Part shown: positions 6,582 to 21,565 of the stretch, one piece after another
Position numbering within the stretch: the first letter of the stretch is position 1
Layout: every line of letters begins with the position of its first letter
Program-made: the position numbers and the translations under genes
Source of the DNA: Umezawaea endophytica
GTDB taxonomy: Bacteria > Actinomycetota > Actinomycetes > Mycobacteriales > Pseudonocardiaceae
Length of the DNA: 64,000 bases
NCBI RefSeq assembly: GCF_025061645.1
Contig: NZ_JANYMP010000004.1
Span: 365,117 to 429,116 of the forward strand
Reading direction: 5' to 3'
Notes under the pieces: model-generated
Seen by the model: the letters and a program-made list of their open reading frames with translations, nothing else
What the model was told of the DNA's origin: nothing
The model's database searches: none

Positions 6582-7022
6582 GTGGTCAACGTCGAGCGCA
6601 GGTTCACCGTCGACAAGCCCGTCGGGGTGGTCGCCGAGTACCTCAAGGACTTCGCCAACGCCGAGCAGTGGGACCCCGGCACGCGCTCCTGCGTCCGGAC
6701 CGACTCCGGCCCCGTCCAGGTCGGGTCGACGTGGCACAACGTCTCCGAGTTCAAGGGCAAGGAGACCGAGCTGGACTACCGCCTCGACCGGATGGAGCCC
6801 AACCGGCTGGTGTTCGTGGGCGAGAACAAGACCGCGACGTCCACCGACGACCTCACGCTGACGCCCGCGGGCTCCGGCACCGAGGTCACCTACCACGCGC
6901 ACATCGTGTTCCACGGCTTGGCGAAGGTGGCCGACCCGTTCCTGAAATCGGAGTTCGAGAAGCTGGGCGACGAGGTCGTGGAGTCCATGACCAAAGCGGT
7001 CGAAAATCTCCCTGTTTCGTAG
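6582..7022 (+). CDS. SRPBCC family (polyketide cyclase/START-like) protein; target gene of the integrated element
   Basis: This 146-residue protein has the SRPBCC fold (MVNVERRFTVDKPVGVVAEYLKDFANAEQWDPG..., typical for ligand-binding START-like proteins). GTG 6582 is preceded by AGGAGAA at 6571-6577. From residue about 123 the coding sequence lies in the 47-bp att core. After the core the tail reads KAVENLPVS and is supplied by the inserted element, whereas the displaced host tail at 21.4 kb reads KAVAGLPSTAGPA. The gene is therefore intact but has a swapped C-terminus. The bound ligand is unknown. Confidence 0.88.
   Translation: MVNVERRFTVDKPVGVVAEYLKDFANAEQWDPGTRSCVRTDSGPVQVGSTWHNVSEFKGKETELDYRLDRMEPNRLVFVGENKTATSTDDLTLTPAGSGTEVTYHAHIVFHGLAKVADPFLKSEFEKLGDEVVESMTKAVENLPVS
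6926..7002 (+). repeat. Left attachment site (attL) of the integrated element
   Basis: These 77 bp match 21318-21394 at 74 positions, including an exact 47-bp core (6948-6994). The repeat lies in the 3' coding end of the SRPBCC gene and about 70 bp from the integrase stop, as expected for a tyrosine-recombinase att site. Confidence 0.9.
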
Positions 7023-7037: not shown

Positions 7038-7064
7038 AGACCTGCCGCTCTCAACGGCAGGTCT
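7038..7064. terminator. Bidirectional terminator between SRPBCC and integrase genes
   Basis: A perfect 10-bp stem (AGACCTGCCG / CGGCAGGTCT) with a 7-nt loop lies between the converging genes. Its right arm overlaps the integrase stop codon. Confidence 0.65.
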
Positions 7065-8490
7065 ACCTACGTCCATGCAGGTTTGCCGACGTTTGTTCCA
7101 TCGCTGTTCCGTTGTCTCCGAACAGGAACGTCTCTACGGTCTCCGCTGCGGCATCCTGACGGGCGCGCCGCACGTGCGTGTAGAGATCCTGCGTGATGGC
7201 TGTGCCGGAGTGGCCCAACTGGACACTCACGAGCTTGATGTCCAGTCCGGCCTCAAACCCGAGCGTCGCCGCCGTGTGCCGACCGTCGTGGAGTCGGATC
7301 ACCGGCAGGCTGTGCTTGGCAGCCAACCGCATAAAGGTCCGAGTGACCGTAGTCGGGGGAGTGGGGAAGCCGTCCGGCGCAGCGAAGACCCAGTCGAGTT
7401 CGGGATTGCTGGGCCCTCTCCACGCAACCCCGGCAGCCAGGCGCTCCTGTCGCTGCCGGAGCTTGACCTTGCGGAGAGCGTCGAGCGTGCCCCTGTCGAG
7501 GGAGATCGTTCGCTTGCTCGACTCGGTCTTCGGCTTACCTAGAGCGATCCCGCGCTTGGGACCAGCGAAGCGCATGGTGCGCTTGATCTCGACCTGCCCG
7601 CGCTCAAGGTCGATGTCTGCCCACTGAAGACCACACGCCTCACCACGTCGTGGACCACGGAGCAGCACCAACCGGAACAGTGCGCCAAGTCGGTGATCAA
7701 CCGTCGCCGTCACAAACTTCACGACCTGCTCTGGTGCCCACACTCGTGCCGTGTCCGGCTTGGGCTTGTTCGGCATCTCGATCTCATCGCGTGGGTTGAA
7801 CGTCAGCAGCCGTCGACGGACCGCCGCGTTGAGCGCCATCGCGAGCACACCAACGATCTGCCGCTGAGTCTCAGCGCCGACGATCTGCTGCCAGTGCCGC
7901 TTGTCCAGGGGGTCGCGAGGTACCGGTTTGCCAGCCTCGATCGCCTCCTGGATCACCCGGTTGCGCCGCTCGAACCAGTCGAGCACCCCGACGATGTGAG
8001 AGCCGCTGAGGCGGTCTAGAGGCATCTCTCCCAGGTGGGGCTTCCACACGAGTTCGATCCGGTCTCGGTACGACTCCACTGTGGACTCCGAGGCACGTCG
8101 CTTGGTGGTCAACCACTCGTCCAGCCACTGGCCGAGCGTCATCGACGGCGCGATCGGGTCGAGCCCCGCGCCGTACTTCTGGCGGACCTCATCAACGGAC
8201 GGCAGCGTCCCGCCTCGCTTTGAGCGCTCGATGATCGTGGACGCGATGCGTCGTTGGATGCGGTCATCACCGGCCGCGACCGCGATCAGCTCGCGAACGT
8301 GCTCCAGGACGGCCGTGGCGTCGTTCTGCGTGGCGAACCCTCCGCGCTTCACCTGGACGTCGTCCCGGTCGATCGTGTCCAAGCGGATGGCGTAGTACCA
8401 CGTCCGATGGTTACGAGCGCTGGGTCGTGTGCACTCTTCCTTCTTGCCCGGGCAGTCGCACCACCACGACACCGAACCGCGTGATCGCAT
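7063..8490 (-). CDS. Site-specific tyrosine recombinase (phage-type integrase)
   Basis: This 475-residue protein has an N-terminal arm-binding region with a short Cys/His-containing start (CDCPGKKEEC), a SAM-like core-binding domain (about 140-220) and a C-terminal catalytic domain. The catalytic set is visible: Arg in LLRGPRRGEACGLQW, HDGRH (HxxR), LGHSG (second His) and Tyr in ITQDLYTHV. It is transcribed toward attL and catalyses integration and excision at the SRPBCC gene. The ATG at 8490 opens the frame directly downstream of an AT-rich regulatory region. Confidence 0.95.
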   Translation of the reverse strand: MRSRGSVSWWCDCPGKKEECTRPSARNHRTWYYAIRLDTIDRDDVQVKRGGFATQNDATAVLEHVRELIAVAAGDDRIQRRIASTIIERSKRGGTLPSVDEVRQKYGAGLDPIAPSMTLGQWLDEWLTTKRRASESTVESYRDRIELVWKPHLGEMPLDRLSGSHIVGVLDWFERRNRVIQEAIEAGKPVPRDPLDKRHWQQIVGAETQRQIVGVLAMALNAAVRRRLLTFNPRDEIEMPNKPKPDTARVWAPEQVVKFVTATVDHRLGALFRLVLLRGPRRGEACGLQWADIDLERGQVEIKRTMRFAGPKRGIALGKPKTESSKRTISLDRGTLDALRKVKLRQRQERLAAGVAWRGPSNPELDWVFAAPDGFPTPPTTVTRTFMRLAAKHSLPVIRLHDGRHTAATLGFEAGLDIKLVSVQLGHSGTAITQDLYTHVRRARQDAAAETVETFLFGDNGTAMEQTSANLHGRR

Positions 8491-9307: not shown

Positions 9308-9358
9308 TCGGTTGATTCGCAGTACAGGAAAGCAGTGTCCTTAGCGGGTTAAATGGTT

Positions 9359-9390
9359 GATGGCCCGGAGTCGGTGCACTCCGGGCCATC
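9359..9390 (+). terminator. Hairpin upstream of the Prim-Pol gene
   Basis: A perfect 12-bp stem (GATGGCCCGGAG / CTCCGGGCCATC) with an 8-nt loop lies 19 bp before the primase start. It is either an actinomycete-type terminator or an RNA control element for replication genes. Confidence 0.6.
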
Positions 9391-9409
9391 GGAAAGTGAA
9401 CGATCAGCT

Positions 9410-10420
9410 ATGAACGATTTTACAACGTCAAAGCCGCTCGACAACGACATGAGAGTGCAACTGCTCGCACGCTACTGCGAGCTTGGTTGGCGGATCTTTC
9501 CGTGCGCCTGGCTAGCGGAAGATGGGACTTGCAGTTGCCCAAAGGGAAGTGATTGCGACGACCGAGGTCGACACGCAATCGTAAAATGGCAGCACGGTGC
9601 GGAAGTTCGCGAGGGTGAAAACGACTTCAATGTGAGGGCGACTAGTGATTTTGAGCAGGTCGCCCGATGGCACCAGAAGTGGCCTCGTGCCAACTGGGGT
9701 TGGTCGCTTGATGATCATTTCGTTGTGGACATCGATAAGCGCCACGGCGGCATGGAGACACTTGCGCTCCTGGATGAGAACGATCCCGATTTCTTGATTC
9801 CCACCCTGGTCCAGGAGACGCCTGGTGGTGGACGGCACTTCGTATATCACCAGCCGTTGGAGGACGTGAACGATCCGCTTGCCGGGAAGGTGAAGACCCT
9901 CAGTCAGGGCAGGCTTCAGAACTTGCCTGGGTTCGAGATCAAGGGAAGGCGAAGTGACGGTGAACCTGGGTCCATTGTATACATCCCTCCGTCAGTAGGG
10001 CGACGCTGGCAAGGAGACCTCGAACGTGTTGACTACGCGTCCGGATACCTCCTTCAGCGGATCTACAGGGCGAAGCAGCCAGGTAACTACGGTGCAGGGA
10101 CGGGAGGCTCTGAGGAGGAATTCGACTGGGGTCTGGCTCTCACGCCAGGTGGTGTTCTCAATAACCAAGACGACACGCTGTACCGCGCGAGCCGGTCACT
10201 GCGCGCCCTGGACGTTCCAGACCGTCTAGCGATTCCGCTACTCCGGACCGTCGTCTCGTTCTTCACGAACACGGATGCATCGGACCCGTGGGAGTTGGAT
10301 AAAGCCAACGAGAAGTGGGAACGCGCAAAGAACGAAGTGACGGCAGGCAAGTCATCCGTTGAACTCACTGAGGTCCAACTCACCCTGGTCGAGGGGTTCC
10401 TGAAGAAGAGGTACTCCTAG
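9410..10420 (+). CDS. Bifunctional DNA primase/polymerase (Prim-Pol, archaeo-eukaryotic primase family)
   Basis: This 336-residue protein has the Prim-Pol domain at about 10-200. It shows WPRANWGWSL, the metal-binding D107-I-D109 in VVDIDKRHGG, and GGGRHFVY with H143 as the nucleotide-binding His. A CSCPKGSDCDDRGRH loop near the start may bind zinc, as in related plasmid and phage enzymes. It would prime, and perhaps extend, DNA synthesis of the element. ATG 9410 was chosen because the earlier in-frame start lies in the 9359 hairpin. It is directly followed by the RepA-like ATPase (TAGTG junction). Confidence 0.9.
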   Translation: MNDFTTSKPLDNDMRVQLLARYCELGWRIFPCAWLAEDGTCSCPKGSDCDDRGRHAIVKWQHGAEVREGENDFNVRATSDFEQVARWHQKWPRANWGWSLDDHFVVDIDKRHGGMETLALLDENDPDFLIPTLVQETPGGGRHFVYHQPLEDVNDPLAGKVKTLSQGRLQNLPGFEIKGRRSDGEPGSIVYIPPSVGRRWQGDLERVDYASGYLLQRIYRAKQPGNYGAGTGGSEEEFDWGLALTPGGVLNNQDDTLYRASRSLRALDVPDRLAIPLLRTVVSFFTNTDASDPWELDKANEKWERAKNEVTAGKSSVELTEVQLTLVEGFLKKRYS

Positions 10421-11712
10421 TGGACGAGCAGAAGCCCGGCACCTTCACAGTGTCAACCCCTTTCGGAGACGTGCAGCTTGACGTAAGAGCAGTCACGTCG
10501 GGCACTGCGGCGATGCTTACGCGTGACGCTTCCACGCAGTTGATGAATGAAACCAAGGCTCTGGCCGAAGTTAAGGATTTCAAGAGTAGGCTTGACACCG
10601 GGATTTTCAACTCGGTCGAGGTCGATCAGCTTCGTAGCGATGACTGCTTGATCAAGGGCCTCATGTATATGCCCGGTATCACGCTGAATCACTCCGACCC
10701 AGGCGTTGGCAAATCTTTCACTGCGCTCGACCTGGCATTCCATGTTGCTCTTGGCCGCGCGACTTGGTGTGGCTTCCGCATCAAGCGACGCGTTCGAGTT
10801 CTCTACATCTACTCCGAGGGCGGGTCGCGACTCTGGAAGCGTCGCGACGCCTGGCTTACTCGGAACGCGGCCGATTCCACTGAGGCTGCGGAACTGGCTG
10901 AATGGATGCACTTTTATCCTCGGTCAGTTCCTCTCACTGGGAGCGAGTCGATCGTGGATGCTCTCCTTGAGCGGATTAAGAACGAGAAGTATGGGCTGAT
11001 TATCTTCGACACTTGGGCAACATCGACCACCGGAGCAGACGAGAACTCGGCCGGAGCAATGGGTGTCGCGCTGGAACGTCTCGGACGCATCCGAGACGAG
11101 GCTGAGGCCGCCATCTTGGTCATCCATCACGATAACAAGGGAGGTGGGTATCGAGGCTCGACGTCACTGGATGGTTACGTCGACACGCGTTTGCACACGA
11201 CGCGTGAAGGCAGCGCAGCGGATCGGAAAATCAAGATCACAATCGAGAAGCAGCGAGACGATGCGTCGGGGATAGCTAGGAAGGGGCATCTCGACATCGT
11301 GTCTCTCGGTGTCGACGAGGATGGCGACCCCATTACGTCGGTGGTGTTCGTATACGGGGAGCCTGCGACATCGGAGGAGTCACCCACTCCAGCAGAGAAG
11401 CGCAAAGTCTTCGATATGCAGGCAGTGGCCGAGTCAATCTGGCTGTACATCCAGGCCACAGCTAATGACCCTGACGACGATGCCTGGTCGTCTTCGGACA
11501 TTGCACGTAAGCCTCATACCAGCCTGGTCGGTACGCAGGCCCAGCGGAAGAAGGCCATCGAGCGCATGAAAGCAGACAAGGTGCTCTACCTCAAGAAGTG
11601 CAGGAAGACGCGGGAGAATGGACGTGCGCTGCCGTTTGAACGACTTGTCCCTTGCGTGGACGCTGAGGGTCGGTTTGCCCAGTTGTCGAAGCTGCTCGAA
11701 AGCGTCGACTGA
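10420..11712 (+). CDS. RepA-like AAA ATPase (AAA_25), replicative helicase/initiator of the element
   Basis: This 430-residue protein carries Walker A HSDPGVGKS (K98), Walker B GLIIFDTW (D197) and the RecA-fold segment AAILVIHHDNKGGGYRGSTSLDGYVD. This is the RepA/AAA_25 family found next to Prim-Pol genes in plasmids, phages and satellites. The C-terminal 100 residues look like a winged-helix DNA-binding part (SSDIARKPHTSLVGTQAQRKKAIERMKADKVL). The GTG start at 10420 shares a base with the primase stop, so translation is coupled. It probably acts on the iteron array directly downstream. Confidence 0.88.
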   Translation: MDEQKPGTFTVSTPFGDVQLDVRAVTSGTAAMLTRDASTQLMNETKALAEVKDFKSRLDTGIFNSVEVDQLRSDDCLIKGLMYMPGITLNHSDPGVGKSFTALDLAFHVALGRATWCGFRIKRRVRVLYIYSEGGSRLWKRRDAWLTRNAADSTEAAELAEWMHFYPRSVPLTGSESIVDALLERIKNEKYGLIIFDTWATSTTGADENSAGAMGVALERLGRIRDEAEAAILVIHHDNKGGGYRGSTSLDGYVDTRLHTTREGSAADRKIKITIEKQRDDASGIARKGHLDIVSLGVDEDGDPITSVVFVYGEPATSEESPTPAEKRKVFDMQAVAESIWLYIQATANDPDDDAWSSSDIARKPHTSLVGTQAQRKKAIERMKADKVLYLKKCRKTRENGRALPFERLVPCVDAEGRFAQLSKLLESVD

Positions 11713-11719
11713 CCGTCGA

Positions 11720-11802
11720 CCTAGTTGATCTCCAACAAGGTTCAAACAAGGTTGATTCAACCGTGTTTGGAACCGTGTTAGAGATATTGGAGATCAACTA
11801 GG
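11720..11802. repeat. 16-bp inverted repeat framing the first iterons
   Basis: CCTAGTTGATCTCCAA (11720-11735) recurs exactly inverted at 11787-11802. It encloses four copies of the AACAMGGTT 9-mer and lies just after the RepA-like stop. Confidence 0.75.
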
Positions 11803-11944
11803 TTGGCCCTGGAAAGGTTCTGAAGTCGACAAACAGTCGTGTTAGCCCTAGAAGGGTTGCTAACACGGTTCAATCGGTCGGTCAGCCAGTCGGCGAACCT
11901 TGTTCGACGGCTGGCTGGCTATAGAACAAGGTTCAAACAAGGTT
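11734..11944. repeat. Iteron array, candidate replication origin of the element
   Basis: Eight copies of the 9-mer AACA(A/C)GGTT are present. Plus orientation: 11734, 11745, 11862, 11925 and 11936. Inverted (AACC(T/G)TGTT): 11759, 11771 and 11896. Pairs are spaced 11-12 bp, about one helical turn. Variants AACTAGGTT occur nearby. The position right after the Prim-Pol and RepA genes suggests an origin bound by the initiator. Confidence 0.7.
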
Positions 11945-12265
11945 CTCTAACTAGGTTGAGCAGAGATGGGCAATATTGAAAGCAGCACTCAAATCTCTGG
12001 GCATTTGAACTTTTTCAAGTCGCGTGAGTGAGATGCCAAATGGACGTGCTCCGAGTAGTCAAAACAGGCGCTCACCCTCCCCCAGGTGGCGCTCCGCCTT
12101 TTACCGTATTAAAGGTAGACCGTACAAAATCACACTTCGCTCAATCCTCTGGGTATCGACATCGTCTGCAACGACATTCCCAACTTGTTCCGTTTGCTCG
12201 GAAAACTGCTGGTCAAAGGATTATTCCTAAACAGTTAGTTCAGGACCATTTGAAGGGATGATCCC
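11945..12265. other. Non-coding AT-richer stretch after the iterons
   Basis: Two overlapping frames of about 70 codons (12024-12261) lack codon bias and ribosome sites, so I see no gene here. The stretch could be the unwinding part of the origin, an untranslated RNA, or the promoter region of the next gene. Confidence 0.4.
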
Positions 12266-13159
12266 GTGGCACCACGTCCCAATGCCATCCCGCCCATCAA
12301 GTGCAGCGCACATGGACGAACAACCAAGAAGCCCTGTGGCAAGCACGCCATTCCCGGCACCCTGGTCTGTGAGATCCACGGTGGCGCGGCACCACAAGTG
12401 AAGGACAAGGCAATGATGCGCCTGGGACTCGCCGAGCTGATGAAGTCGGACCCTCGTCCAGTGTGGGAGGTCGTGCTTGATCACGTGCACGCCCTGGACG
12501 CCATCGCTCGTGAGGCCCGCGTTGACCTACGTGAGGGCGAAGACGTTTCAGCAGAACAACTTGACCGCATCGTGGACAGCTCGAAGGCAGCACTCACGGC
12601 AGCGAAACTGGCCATCGACACGCGCTCCTACGAGATGATGGCCGAACAGACCCGGCGGAACGTGGAGCTTGAGGGCAAGGTCGTCGCCGAAGCCATCGGC
12701 CGTGTTCTCGATGTCCTACTGAACGACCTAAGAGGCGGTGTCCACTACTTGCAGGGAACCCGCACCTGGGCGTTCGAGAGCGCGCACGCCGTACTCCTCC
12801 ACCTGGACGCGAACGAATCCGCGGTTGACTTGGAGCTACCGCCCTCGCCACTGGCCGGGTTCACGCTCGTCTCCCCGGAGCGCCTGGAGTTGCTGGCCGC
12901 TCAGACCTCCTCGACGGCCGACGACAGCGCTAGCCGTAGTCGACAACCCGTTTCGGATACCAGCACGCGAGAGGATGACTCGGACCCAGAAGGGGACGGT
13001 CCGGCGCCAACTTCCGGAGCAGAGTCGACACCGGAACCGCTGGAGGCGGAACTGGTGGAGGAGACGCCAACCCCTGGACCACGACGGAGCTGGTCACCAC
13101 GTGGAATGCCCAGTGCTTGGAGGCAGGGCGGCAGCCCATTCAGCCAGGCCATCGGTTGA
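12266..13159 (+). CDS. Phage-type zinc-finger protein, possible small terminase-like DNA-binding protein
   Basis: This 297-residue protein starts at GTG 12266. The N-terminus has a Cys/His cluster (KCSAHGRTTKKPCGKHAIPGTLVCEIHGG) followed by PQVKDKAMMRLGLAEL. That layout is common in actinophage and actinomycete mobile-element proteins and may be related to small terminase subunits. The middle (60-210) is helical. The last 80 residues are Pro/Glu/Ser-rich and probably disordered. If it is a terminase-like packaging specificity protein, it would support a satellite lifestyle. The family link is from memory of sequence style, not proven. Confidence 0.55.
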   Translation: MAPRPNAIPPIKCSAHGRTTKKPCGKHAIPGTLVCEIHGGAAPQVKDKAMMRLGLAELMKSDPRPVWEVVLDHVHALDAIAREARVDLREGEDVSAEQLDRIVDSSKAALTAAKLAIDTRSYEMMAEQTRRNVELEGKVVAEAIGRVLDVLLNDLRGGVHYLQGTRTWAFESAHAVLLHLDANESAVDLELPPSPLAGFTLVSPERLELLAAQTSSTADDSASRSRQPVSDTSTREDDSDPEGDGPAPTSGAESTPEPLEAELVEETPTPGPRRSWSPRGMPSAWRQGGSPFSQAIG

Positions 13160-17284: not shown

Positions 17285-18550
17285 ATGACTCTCCGAAACC
17301 ACGATGACCCTCGGGCTCACCGTCTCTTTGCTCGCGCCGATCGCGCTGTCCGGAGCACTCCGGAGTATCTCGCGCGCAGCATTCGGAACTGGCTTGATGA
17401 CCCACAGCTCGATTCTTACGCGTTGACTGCTTCTATGAACGGCAGGCAAGCTCATGCCGCCGAGATTATGCGCGTGTTTCCGGCTGCGCGTGAGGTTCTC
17501 GGCGAGTCGGTAGTAGTAGCCGCCGTGGGGTCGAGTGCACCTGTGCCCAACTGCTGCCGCTGGGGTGGTGCACAGATGCATGCCCGCGTCCATAAGCTTC
17601 GCATCCCACAGTTCTCCGTAGGCTTGATGCCACTCTTGGGACGTCCGTGCAATCTTTGCAAAGACAAGTGGATGAAAGAATTGCGCACCAAGGTTGACAC
17701 TGGCCGCGCACTAGTAGCGTCGGCCAATTCCTCGGCCAAGCAACTTACTCTGATCGCAGGGGCGTCTCAGGTGATGTTGCCAAGGACTGGGAGCGCCTGG
17801 TGTGAGCGCGTAGCGCGTGCAGCACCCCTAGAGCCGCCCCTAGCATGGTTCTCTGATCCGCAGCTCACGGGTCCGGTGAAGGTTCGCGTTACGGATGAGG
17901 GCCGCGTTTATGGGCACATCGCCGCGTGGAAATCGGTTCACGCCGGAATCCCCGGTGTCACGCCTCCTAGGTCTAGAGATGGAAGATACTCGAAGTTTCA
18001 CCGCCACCCGGTAAGGACGGCTAGCGGCAGTCTCGTAAGAACCGGACCACTAGCCACTGGCGGGCACTTCAGCACTAGGTCCAATCTGTCGATCAGTCAG
18101 GTGTCCGAGCATTACGACGATCCTCGCTACGTGGTCGCCGACGTTGTGGCCGGGGAAGACAAACACGGTATTTGGGTATCGGGCGCACTGCGTTATGGCG
18201 TTGAGCCCTTCCAGGTAATGCTGCTGGATCGCTACTCGATCAGTGGTGATTGGCGTGAGCAAGATCTGGTAGCCGCCTGCACAGTAAGCGTGCCAGGATT
18301 TCATTTGGACGCGGATGAACAGGTGCGCGCACTTGCGGCTTCTGGCAATCGTGTTAAGAGTTTCGCAACCGCCTGCTACCCACGGCGCGTTGAGCGAAAT
18401 GGAAAGCTGATTGCTGTGCTGGCGGCCGGAGTTCTGCCACCTCTTCCGAGTCCTTGTGACTGTGGCCCCTGCCTCAACGACGTATGTAGACTTGACAACG
18501 CGATGCGTGATCTCGAAAAGCAACGCGCACGAGTTGGGCGGAACCGATGA
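17285..18550 (+). CDS. Phage prohead protease/capsid-maturation-like protein
   Basis: In this 421-residue protein, about residues 200-350 match the style of actinophage capsid maturation proteins: DEGRVYGHIAAWKSVHAGIPGVTPPRS, LATGGHFSTRSNLSISQVSEHYDDPRYVVADVVAGEDKHGIWVSGALR, SGDWRE and VSVPGF. The N-terminal 200 residues carry Cys pairs (NCCRW, CNLCKDKW), and the C-terminus has CDCGPCLNDVC, suggesting bound zinc. No major capsid or portal gene is adjacent, so the enzyme may act on a helper phage capsid or be a remnant. Family assignment is from recognised motif order, not a search. Confidence 0.6.
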   Translation: MTLRNHDDPRAHRLFARADRAVRSTPEYLARSIRNWLDDPQLDSYALTASMNGRQAHAAEIMRVFPAAREVLGESVVVAAVGSSAPVPNCCRWGGAQMHARVHKLRIPQFSVGLMPLLGRPCNLCKDKWMKELRTKVDTGRALVASANSSAKQLTLIAGASQVMLPRTGSAWCERVARAAPLEPPLAWFSDPQLTGPVKVRVTDEGRVYGHIAAWKSVHAGIPGVTPPRSRDGRYSKFHRHPVRTASGSLVRTGPLATGGHFSTRSNLSISQVSEHYDDPRYVVADVVAGEDKHGIWVSGALRYGVEPFQVMLLDRYSISGDWREQDLVAACTVSVPGFHLDADEQVRALAASGNRVKSFATACYPRRVERNGKLIAVLAAGVLPPLPSPCDCGPCLNDVCRLDNAMRDLEKQRARVGRNR

Positions 18551-20275: not shown

Positions 20276-20313
20276 CCGGTGCGGGTTGCTGTGGAACTAG
20301 GTTCGGCCGGTAA

Positions 20314-21174: not shown

Positions 21175-21426
21175 ATGAATACTGCCAAGTGGGACGAACT
21201 CCGATCACTCTCGTGGTCGTCGCAGGTGCAGCCCGTTGCTCTGGTGTTCGTTGGATGTTCCGTTGGGCAGATGATCACGCAGCCGTTCAACGGGAAGCTG
21301 CTGACCAGAGCACTTGCGGTGGCCGACCCGTTCCTCAAGTCGGAGTTCGAGAAGCTGGGCGACGAGGTCGTGGAGTCCATGACCAAGGCGGTCGCGGGGC
21401 TGCCTTCGACGGCGGGTCCCGCCTAG
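21175..21426 (+). pseudogene. Chimeric frame: element-encoded start fused to the displaced SRPBCC 3' end
   Basis: The first 49 or so codons (MNTAKWDELRSLSWSSQVQPVALVFVGC...) come from the element. The rest (VADPFLKSEFEKLGDEVVESMTKAVAGLPSTAGPA) is the original C-terminus of the SRPBCC gene at 6582-7022, displaced by insertion. On excision this tail would rejoin the SRPBCC gene. Whether the 83-residue chimera is expressed is unknown. Confidence 0.75.
21318..21394 (+). repeat. Right attachment site (attR) of the integrated element
   Basis: This is the partner of 6926-7002 (74/77 identical; exact 47-bp core at 21340-21386). Sequence to its right continues the native host gene end up to TAG 21424-21426. 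Confidence 0.9.
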
Positions 21427-21565
21427 CCGCCGTCCGGGTAGTGTTCGCGGGTGTGCGCCTCGCGCCCGTCGTCCGCGTCAGCCCTGCCCGTTCGGAGCCC
21501 GGTGACCGCGACCACGGCGCGCGGACGGCGGTGGACGTGGCAGGTGTGGAAGTGGAGGCGCGCGA

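Follow-up and report, generated by a model that had tools for sequence, protein, structure and literature searches.

Known systems with comparable replication origins

In SaPI and SCC elements, the replication proteins Rep and Cch2 use a C-terminal domain to bind iterons located directly behind their own helicase gene (PMC7581432). The locus described here – part of a window from Umezawaea endophytica, by which we mean the whole 64-kb stretch of DNA analysed – resembles SaPI (Rep) and SCCmec (Cch2) in that the gene for a putative initiator helicase is followed by a putative short-repeat origin, all within an integrated mobile element. However, the helicases of SaPI and SCCmec belong to other families (Cch2 is a 3'-to-5' helicase likened to MCM; PMC7581432), whereas the protein found here is a RecA-fold helicase of the RepA/AAA_25 type.

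Closer to it in this respect is RSF1010 (IncQ; RepA, RepB' and RepC), whose oriV combines a RepA helicase with iterons and hairpin priming sites (PMC4234260, PMC4434180). The two systems have in common the RepA helicase family, a primase of the archaeo-eukaryotic type and the presence of iterons and hairpins in one origin. Yet RSF1010 relies on a separate protein, RepC, for its iterons and on two ssi hairpins, one per strand, whereas here no gene for a RepC-like product was recognised among those of the element, the helicase has a predicted winged helix of its own and its relatives show a single palindrome among the repeats.

In pRN1, a cis-acting stem-loop lies directly downstream of ORF904, a gene for a Prim-Pol, helicase and winged-helix protein (PMC4234260). 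Both the combination of these three parts (the winged helix as a predicted one) and the stem-loop behind the gene recur here, but the pRN1 helicase belongs to SF3 and its 100-bp stem-loop comes without iterons. AICEs such as SLP1 offer a further likeness, as they are integrated actinobacterial elements that encode a tyrosine integrase and in which a replication gene comes after the Prim-Pol gene (PMC3218068); the present element differs in having no FtsK/SpoIIIE transfer gene and in carrying a phage-like capsid protease gene instead. Finally, fusions with helicases of the RepA type are noted in a survey of primases of this kind, a text search of which returned no mention of iterons or inverted repeats (PMC5862659).

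The integrated element and its genes

The element measures 14.4 kb, is lower in GC than its surroundings and is flanked by 77-bp att direct repeats. The left repeat (6926–7002, 77 nt) falls within the 3'-terminal part of an SRPBCC/polyketide-cyclase gene, a homologue of which is present in both same-genus genomes, and is a 96% direct repeat of the right one (21318–21394). Integration swaps the last residues of the SRPBCC gene (6582–7022), so that its 3' end is now supplied by the element, while the original ending is retained at the right repeat (21318–21427).

On the minus strand, the element encodes a tyrosine integrase (7063–8490; Pfam PF00589, 2.4e-18; phrog_1, 1.7e-62). On the plus strand, a Prim-Pol (AEP primase-polymerase) of 355 aa (9353–10420; PF09250, 6.9e-16) precedes a RepA-type hexameric helicase of 430 aa (10420–11712; PF13481 AAA_25, 4.1e-28); the first gene beyond the origin region codes for an HGG-domain protein (12266–13159; phrog_3678, 3e-8; NF041373, weak). 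Further along the same strand is a 421-aa protein resembling a phage head maturation protease or portal fusion (17285–18550; phrog_859, 1.8e-41; phrog_18402, 5e-34), with tblastn matches to capsid maturation proteases of actinophages. The remaining genes include one for an XRE/DUF5753 regulator, its DUF6879 partner and a weak match to a tail protein; an HTH protein of 85 aa is also encoded near the array. Neither a large terminase, nor a major capsid protein, nor a partition protein was recognised among the element's genes, and an Rfam search of the element gave zero matches.

At 14.4 kb, and with an integrase, a Prim-Pol, a RepA and capsid-protease-like and tail-like genes, the element may be a phage satellite of the SaPI/PICI-like kind; such a satellite and a reduced prophage are the two most likely identities for it. 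It does combine an integrase with a Prim-Pol/Rep module, as AICEs do; classification as an AICE was nevertheless rejected on account of the missing FtsK/SpoIIIE gene, the genome's PF01580 matches all lying off the element's contig. With neither terminase nor major capsid protein recognised beside it, the capsid-protease-like protein could act on the capsids of a helper phage.

An iteron array with three hairpins

Eight exact copies of the 9-mer AACA(A/C)GGTT (AACAMGGTT) occupy 211 bp between 11734 and 11944, starting at 11734, 11745, 11862, 11925 and 11936 on the plus strand and at 11759, 11771 and 11896 on the minus strand. The expectation from dinucleotide shuffles is 0.21 ± 0.50 copies per 64 kb, with a maximum of 2; across the 11 Mb of the genome there are 32 copies, and 11734–11944 is their sole cluster. 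Of two plus-strand copies of a variant, AACTAGGTT, one (11796–11804) falls in the first hairpin's right arm and the other (11949–11957) at the right end of the array, which reaches 11957 once they are counted. An orphan AACTAGGTT at 20295–20303 is found outside the array, near the right end of the element, whose att repeat is 1 kb away.

These findings agree with the earlier note on this DNA, in that all eight copies are where it had reported them, on both strands, and the array does lie behind the Prim-Pol and RepA genes, beginning 6–22 nt past the RepA stop codon. Other details called for adjustment. The spacing of 11–12 bp, roughly one helical turn, holds for the pairs (11, 12 and 11 bp) and not for the copies at 11862 and 11896, which are unpaired. 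The first four copies are indeed enclosed by a perfect inverted repeat, with arms of 17 rather than 16 bp (11719–11735 and 11787–11803). The stretch is richer in AT, at 52% versus about 40% for the element; there is no strongly AT-rich block beside the iterons that would correspond to a melting region.

The 17-bp arms form a long hairpin (11719–11803; fold from about 11717 to 11803) that encloses the first four iterons in the order plus, plus, minus, minus. A second hairpin (11837–11870), with CCCTAGAAGGG at its apex (11846–11856), holds an iteron in its outer stem, and a third, GC-rich one (CAGCCAGTCGGCGAACCTTGTTCGACGGCTGGCTG; 11880–11920) carries an iteron at its tip. In single-strand DNA folding, the self-complementarity of the 254-nt region is far above that of shuffled sequence (z = -10). 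Iteron orientation within the window's array shows no clean flip.

The helicase and its C-terminal region

The family profile of the helicase has one clear relative of solved structure, RSF1010 RepA (1g8y, E 3.2e-10), and the best PDB fold matches of its AlphaFold2 model are 1nlf/1g8y. In this model, a RecA-fold core is followed, at approximately residues 324–411, by three helices and two strands. From this helix-helix-helix-strand-strand order we predict, with medium confidence, that the C-terminus is a winged helix; the pLDDT of the region is 50–80, and the domain is modelled poorly when folded alone. The C-terminus of one relative gave a weak winged-helix match (HTH_27, 7e-4) that falls under the curated cut-off.

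Judging from the sequence of the locus and of its relatives, we consider it likely that 11719–11957 is the element's replication origin and that the RepA-like helicase encoded upstream is the initiator, binding the iterons through its C-terminus.

Relatives carry their own repeats behind the helicase gene

Close relatives of RepA or Prim-Pol were found neither in genome contigs, nor in viral contigs, nor in the same genus, and distant relatives were therefore used for comparison. The word AACAMGGTT itself is known only from this element. Nonetheless, eight of the first twelve relatives (L020–L025, L047 and L048) have a short-repeat cluster of their own that starts at the stop codon of the helicase or slightly ahead of it, while L027, L044, L045 and L046 have no array behind the helicase gene. 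Eighty viral contigs from a family-alignment search gave the same picture of the layout.

The full sample comprised 133 non-redundant loci, mostly viral contigs: 73 for discovery and, from two further scans with the repeat criteria unchanged, 60 new ones for validation. With repeats defined as a single 8-mer present four or more times, counted on both strands from -40 to +300 of the helicase stop codon, element-specific clusters lie directly behind the helicase gene in 62 of the 133 loci (36/73 in discovery and 26/60 in validation). The same was true of 0.8% of 4374 discovery control windows from the same sequences and 1.0% of 2031 validation ones, although part of this contrast could be an intergenic effect, as the control windows are mostly coding and the tested regions mostly intergenic. 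Regions upstream of the same gene provide a fairer control (upstream counts of 1/50 and 2/50, 1/50 being that for the repeats in the validation set) and the difference is still strong, with the proviso that loci of one collection are incompletely independent despite the removal of near-duplicates.

The repeat words vary by element – ACTTCCCA, CCTGTGCA, CGTGACGC, ACCTTACC and CGGACAAG, among others – while the layout is constant, and arrays reach 11–12 copies; Rhizobium phage RHph_Y3_1, for instance, has 8 copies of CGTTCCCA behind its helicase gene. This layout, in which short repeats, often accompanied by a small hairpin, follow a RepA-type helicase gene, is found in dozens of phages that are unrelated to one another, and every one of them has a repeat word of its own. 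The comparison with related elements, which the earlier note had named as a check for conserved iterons, accordingly finds differently worded arrays at the same site in relatives of RepA, and this strongly supports that note's reading of the region as an initiator-binding layout and origin.

Similarity between repeat words weakly tracks similarity between the helicase C-termini beyond that of the cores (partial r 0.08, permutation p 0.006). The arrangement as a whole suggests fast co-evolution of the DNA-binding domain borne by the helicase with its origin, within a layout that is retained.

The repeats could instead be operators, through which RepA, the XRE protein or the HTH protein of 85 aa would regulate transcription that enters the gene at 12266 or leaves the rep operon. 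Such a role is suggested by the near-palindromic form of the 9-mer (AACnnnGTT), by the regulator genes nearby and by the gene that follows downstream. Yet we regard it as unlikely: the relatives' arrays are behind the helicase gene and not upstream of it (26/60 versus 1/50), as many as 11–12 copies would be unusual for operators, and no sigma-70-like promoter was found in 11500–12400 by a scan that covers actinobacterial promoters poorly.

Among the loci with the layout, the helicase is fused to a Prim-Pol in L020, L058, L059 and L067 and to a TOPRIM-type primase in L128; since both kinds of fusion have it, the layout is tied to the helicase rather than to one primase type. This bears on another reading, in which the 9-mers are template sites where Prim-Pol starts synthesis, and not sites that the helicase binds in double-stranded form. 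The PrimPol of phage NrS-1 does start at an 8-nt template word, TTTGGTTA (PMC8718748), and the Prim-Pol gene adjoins the array, but because the layout follows the helicase even where the primase is of the TOPRIM type (L128), we find this reading improbable and favour recognition by the helicase.

A palindrome among the repeats

Many relatives also share a GC-rich palindrome whose apex is rich in TA, of the CCCTATAGGG type, which is enriched about 40–60-fold: the pattern CCCT(A/T)0-3AGGG occurs in 23/73 discovery and 18/60 validation regions versus 0.4–0.5% of controls. A first, strict hairpin definition had overlooked short palindromes (13/36 iteron-positive loci); the looser pattern was composed after the discovery loci had been seen and was retested on the 60 new loci, then with a stricter pattern. 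Repeats or palindrome are present in 46/73 and 39/60 loci, versus 1.2–1.4% of controls, and about a third of the relatives have neither under the criteria applied. Of the 36 informative loci that have both, 28 show repeats whose majority orientation reverses from one side of the palindrome to the other.

In the window, the CCCTAGAAGGG hairpin is a candidate counterpart of this palindrome. It fails the strict pattern of the relatives, and as the looser one was drawn up using CCCTAGAAGGG and hence includes it by design, the correspondence is only suggestive.

T-tracts are rare, with at least 4 T in the 9 nt past the stem in just 5 of 57 hairpins, so that a reading of the palindromes as intrinsic terminators is disfavoured. 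Short repeats in multiple copies also form partition and copy-control sites, and GC-rich hairpins stand directly past the stop codon here; still, it is improbable that the hairpins terminate transcription of the rep operon, that the repeats serve as a centromere- or crr-like partition or incompatibility site and that the origin lies elsewhere, given the scarcity of T-tracts, the symmetry of the relatives' repeats about the palindrome and the lack of a recognised partition gene in the element.

A proposed origin class

We therefore return to the origin reading: the repeats are very probably the replication start of the 14-kb integrated element. The RepA-like helicase would act as initiator, with its C-terminal winged helix binding the 9-bp iterons and thereby loading one or more RecA-fold helicase rings onto the origin. 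Melting may be focused on the palindromic hairpin segments, possibly through their extrusion, which would offer single strands to both sides; Prim-Pol, from the adjoining gene, could then prime synthesis at the opened segments, and the element would replicate after excision. We infer both the role of the palindrome and the exact binding protein.

More broadly, phages and islands with a RepA(AAA_25)-winged-helix protein may well constitute one unrecognised class of origin, in which the helicase gene is followed directly by opposing, element-specific iteron arrays with a conserved CCCTATAGGG palindrome between them. This palindrome would serve as the melting or loading point, and priming would fall to Prim-Pol or TOPRIM primases. 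The earlier note had spoken of an undescribed origin type. Taken singly, the parts are not new, as SaPI and SCC already provide examples of iteron origins behind a helicase gene (PMC7581432) and pRN1 one of a stem-loop origin behind a Prim-Pol/helicase gene (PMC4234260); what we did not find described, in an open-access literature that leaves out many papers, is the combination of a RepA/AAA_25 helicase, a winged helix and a shared palindrome. If the class holds, knowing where one helicase gene lies would be enough to predict the replication start in hundreds of phages and integrated elements. Compact origins that can be tested would then be available for phages of many hosts, together with a candidate origin palindrome common to very different primases.

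Loci with other arrangements

The repeat pair AACAMGGTTNNAACAMGGTT has 11 matches in viral contigs; the two inspected (L031 and L032) are unrelated phages with no such helicase on the stretch read, and the matches are likely due to chance.

Several named phages, including Baka, GB2A and corynephage BFK20 (gp43), have no array behind the helicase gene. In BFK20 (L135), the intergenic region behind the RepA-like gene gp43 spans 470 nt and contains a hairpin, CTAAGCGCCC...GGGGCGCTTAG, but no iteron cluster. In L027, tandem repeats, mostly spaced 36 nt apart, form an array (9834–10072) about 600 nt beyond the helicase gene. Rhodococcus phage Shagrat (L143) has repeats, AGTCCACG, and a hairpin, CCCCGTATCTATAGATACGGGG, approximately 300–480 nt past the helicase gene, one small gene downstream, which suggests that an inserted gene can separate the origin from the helicase gene.
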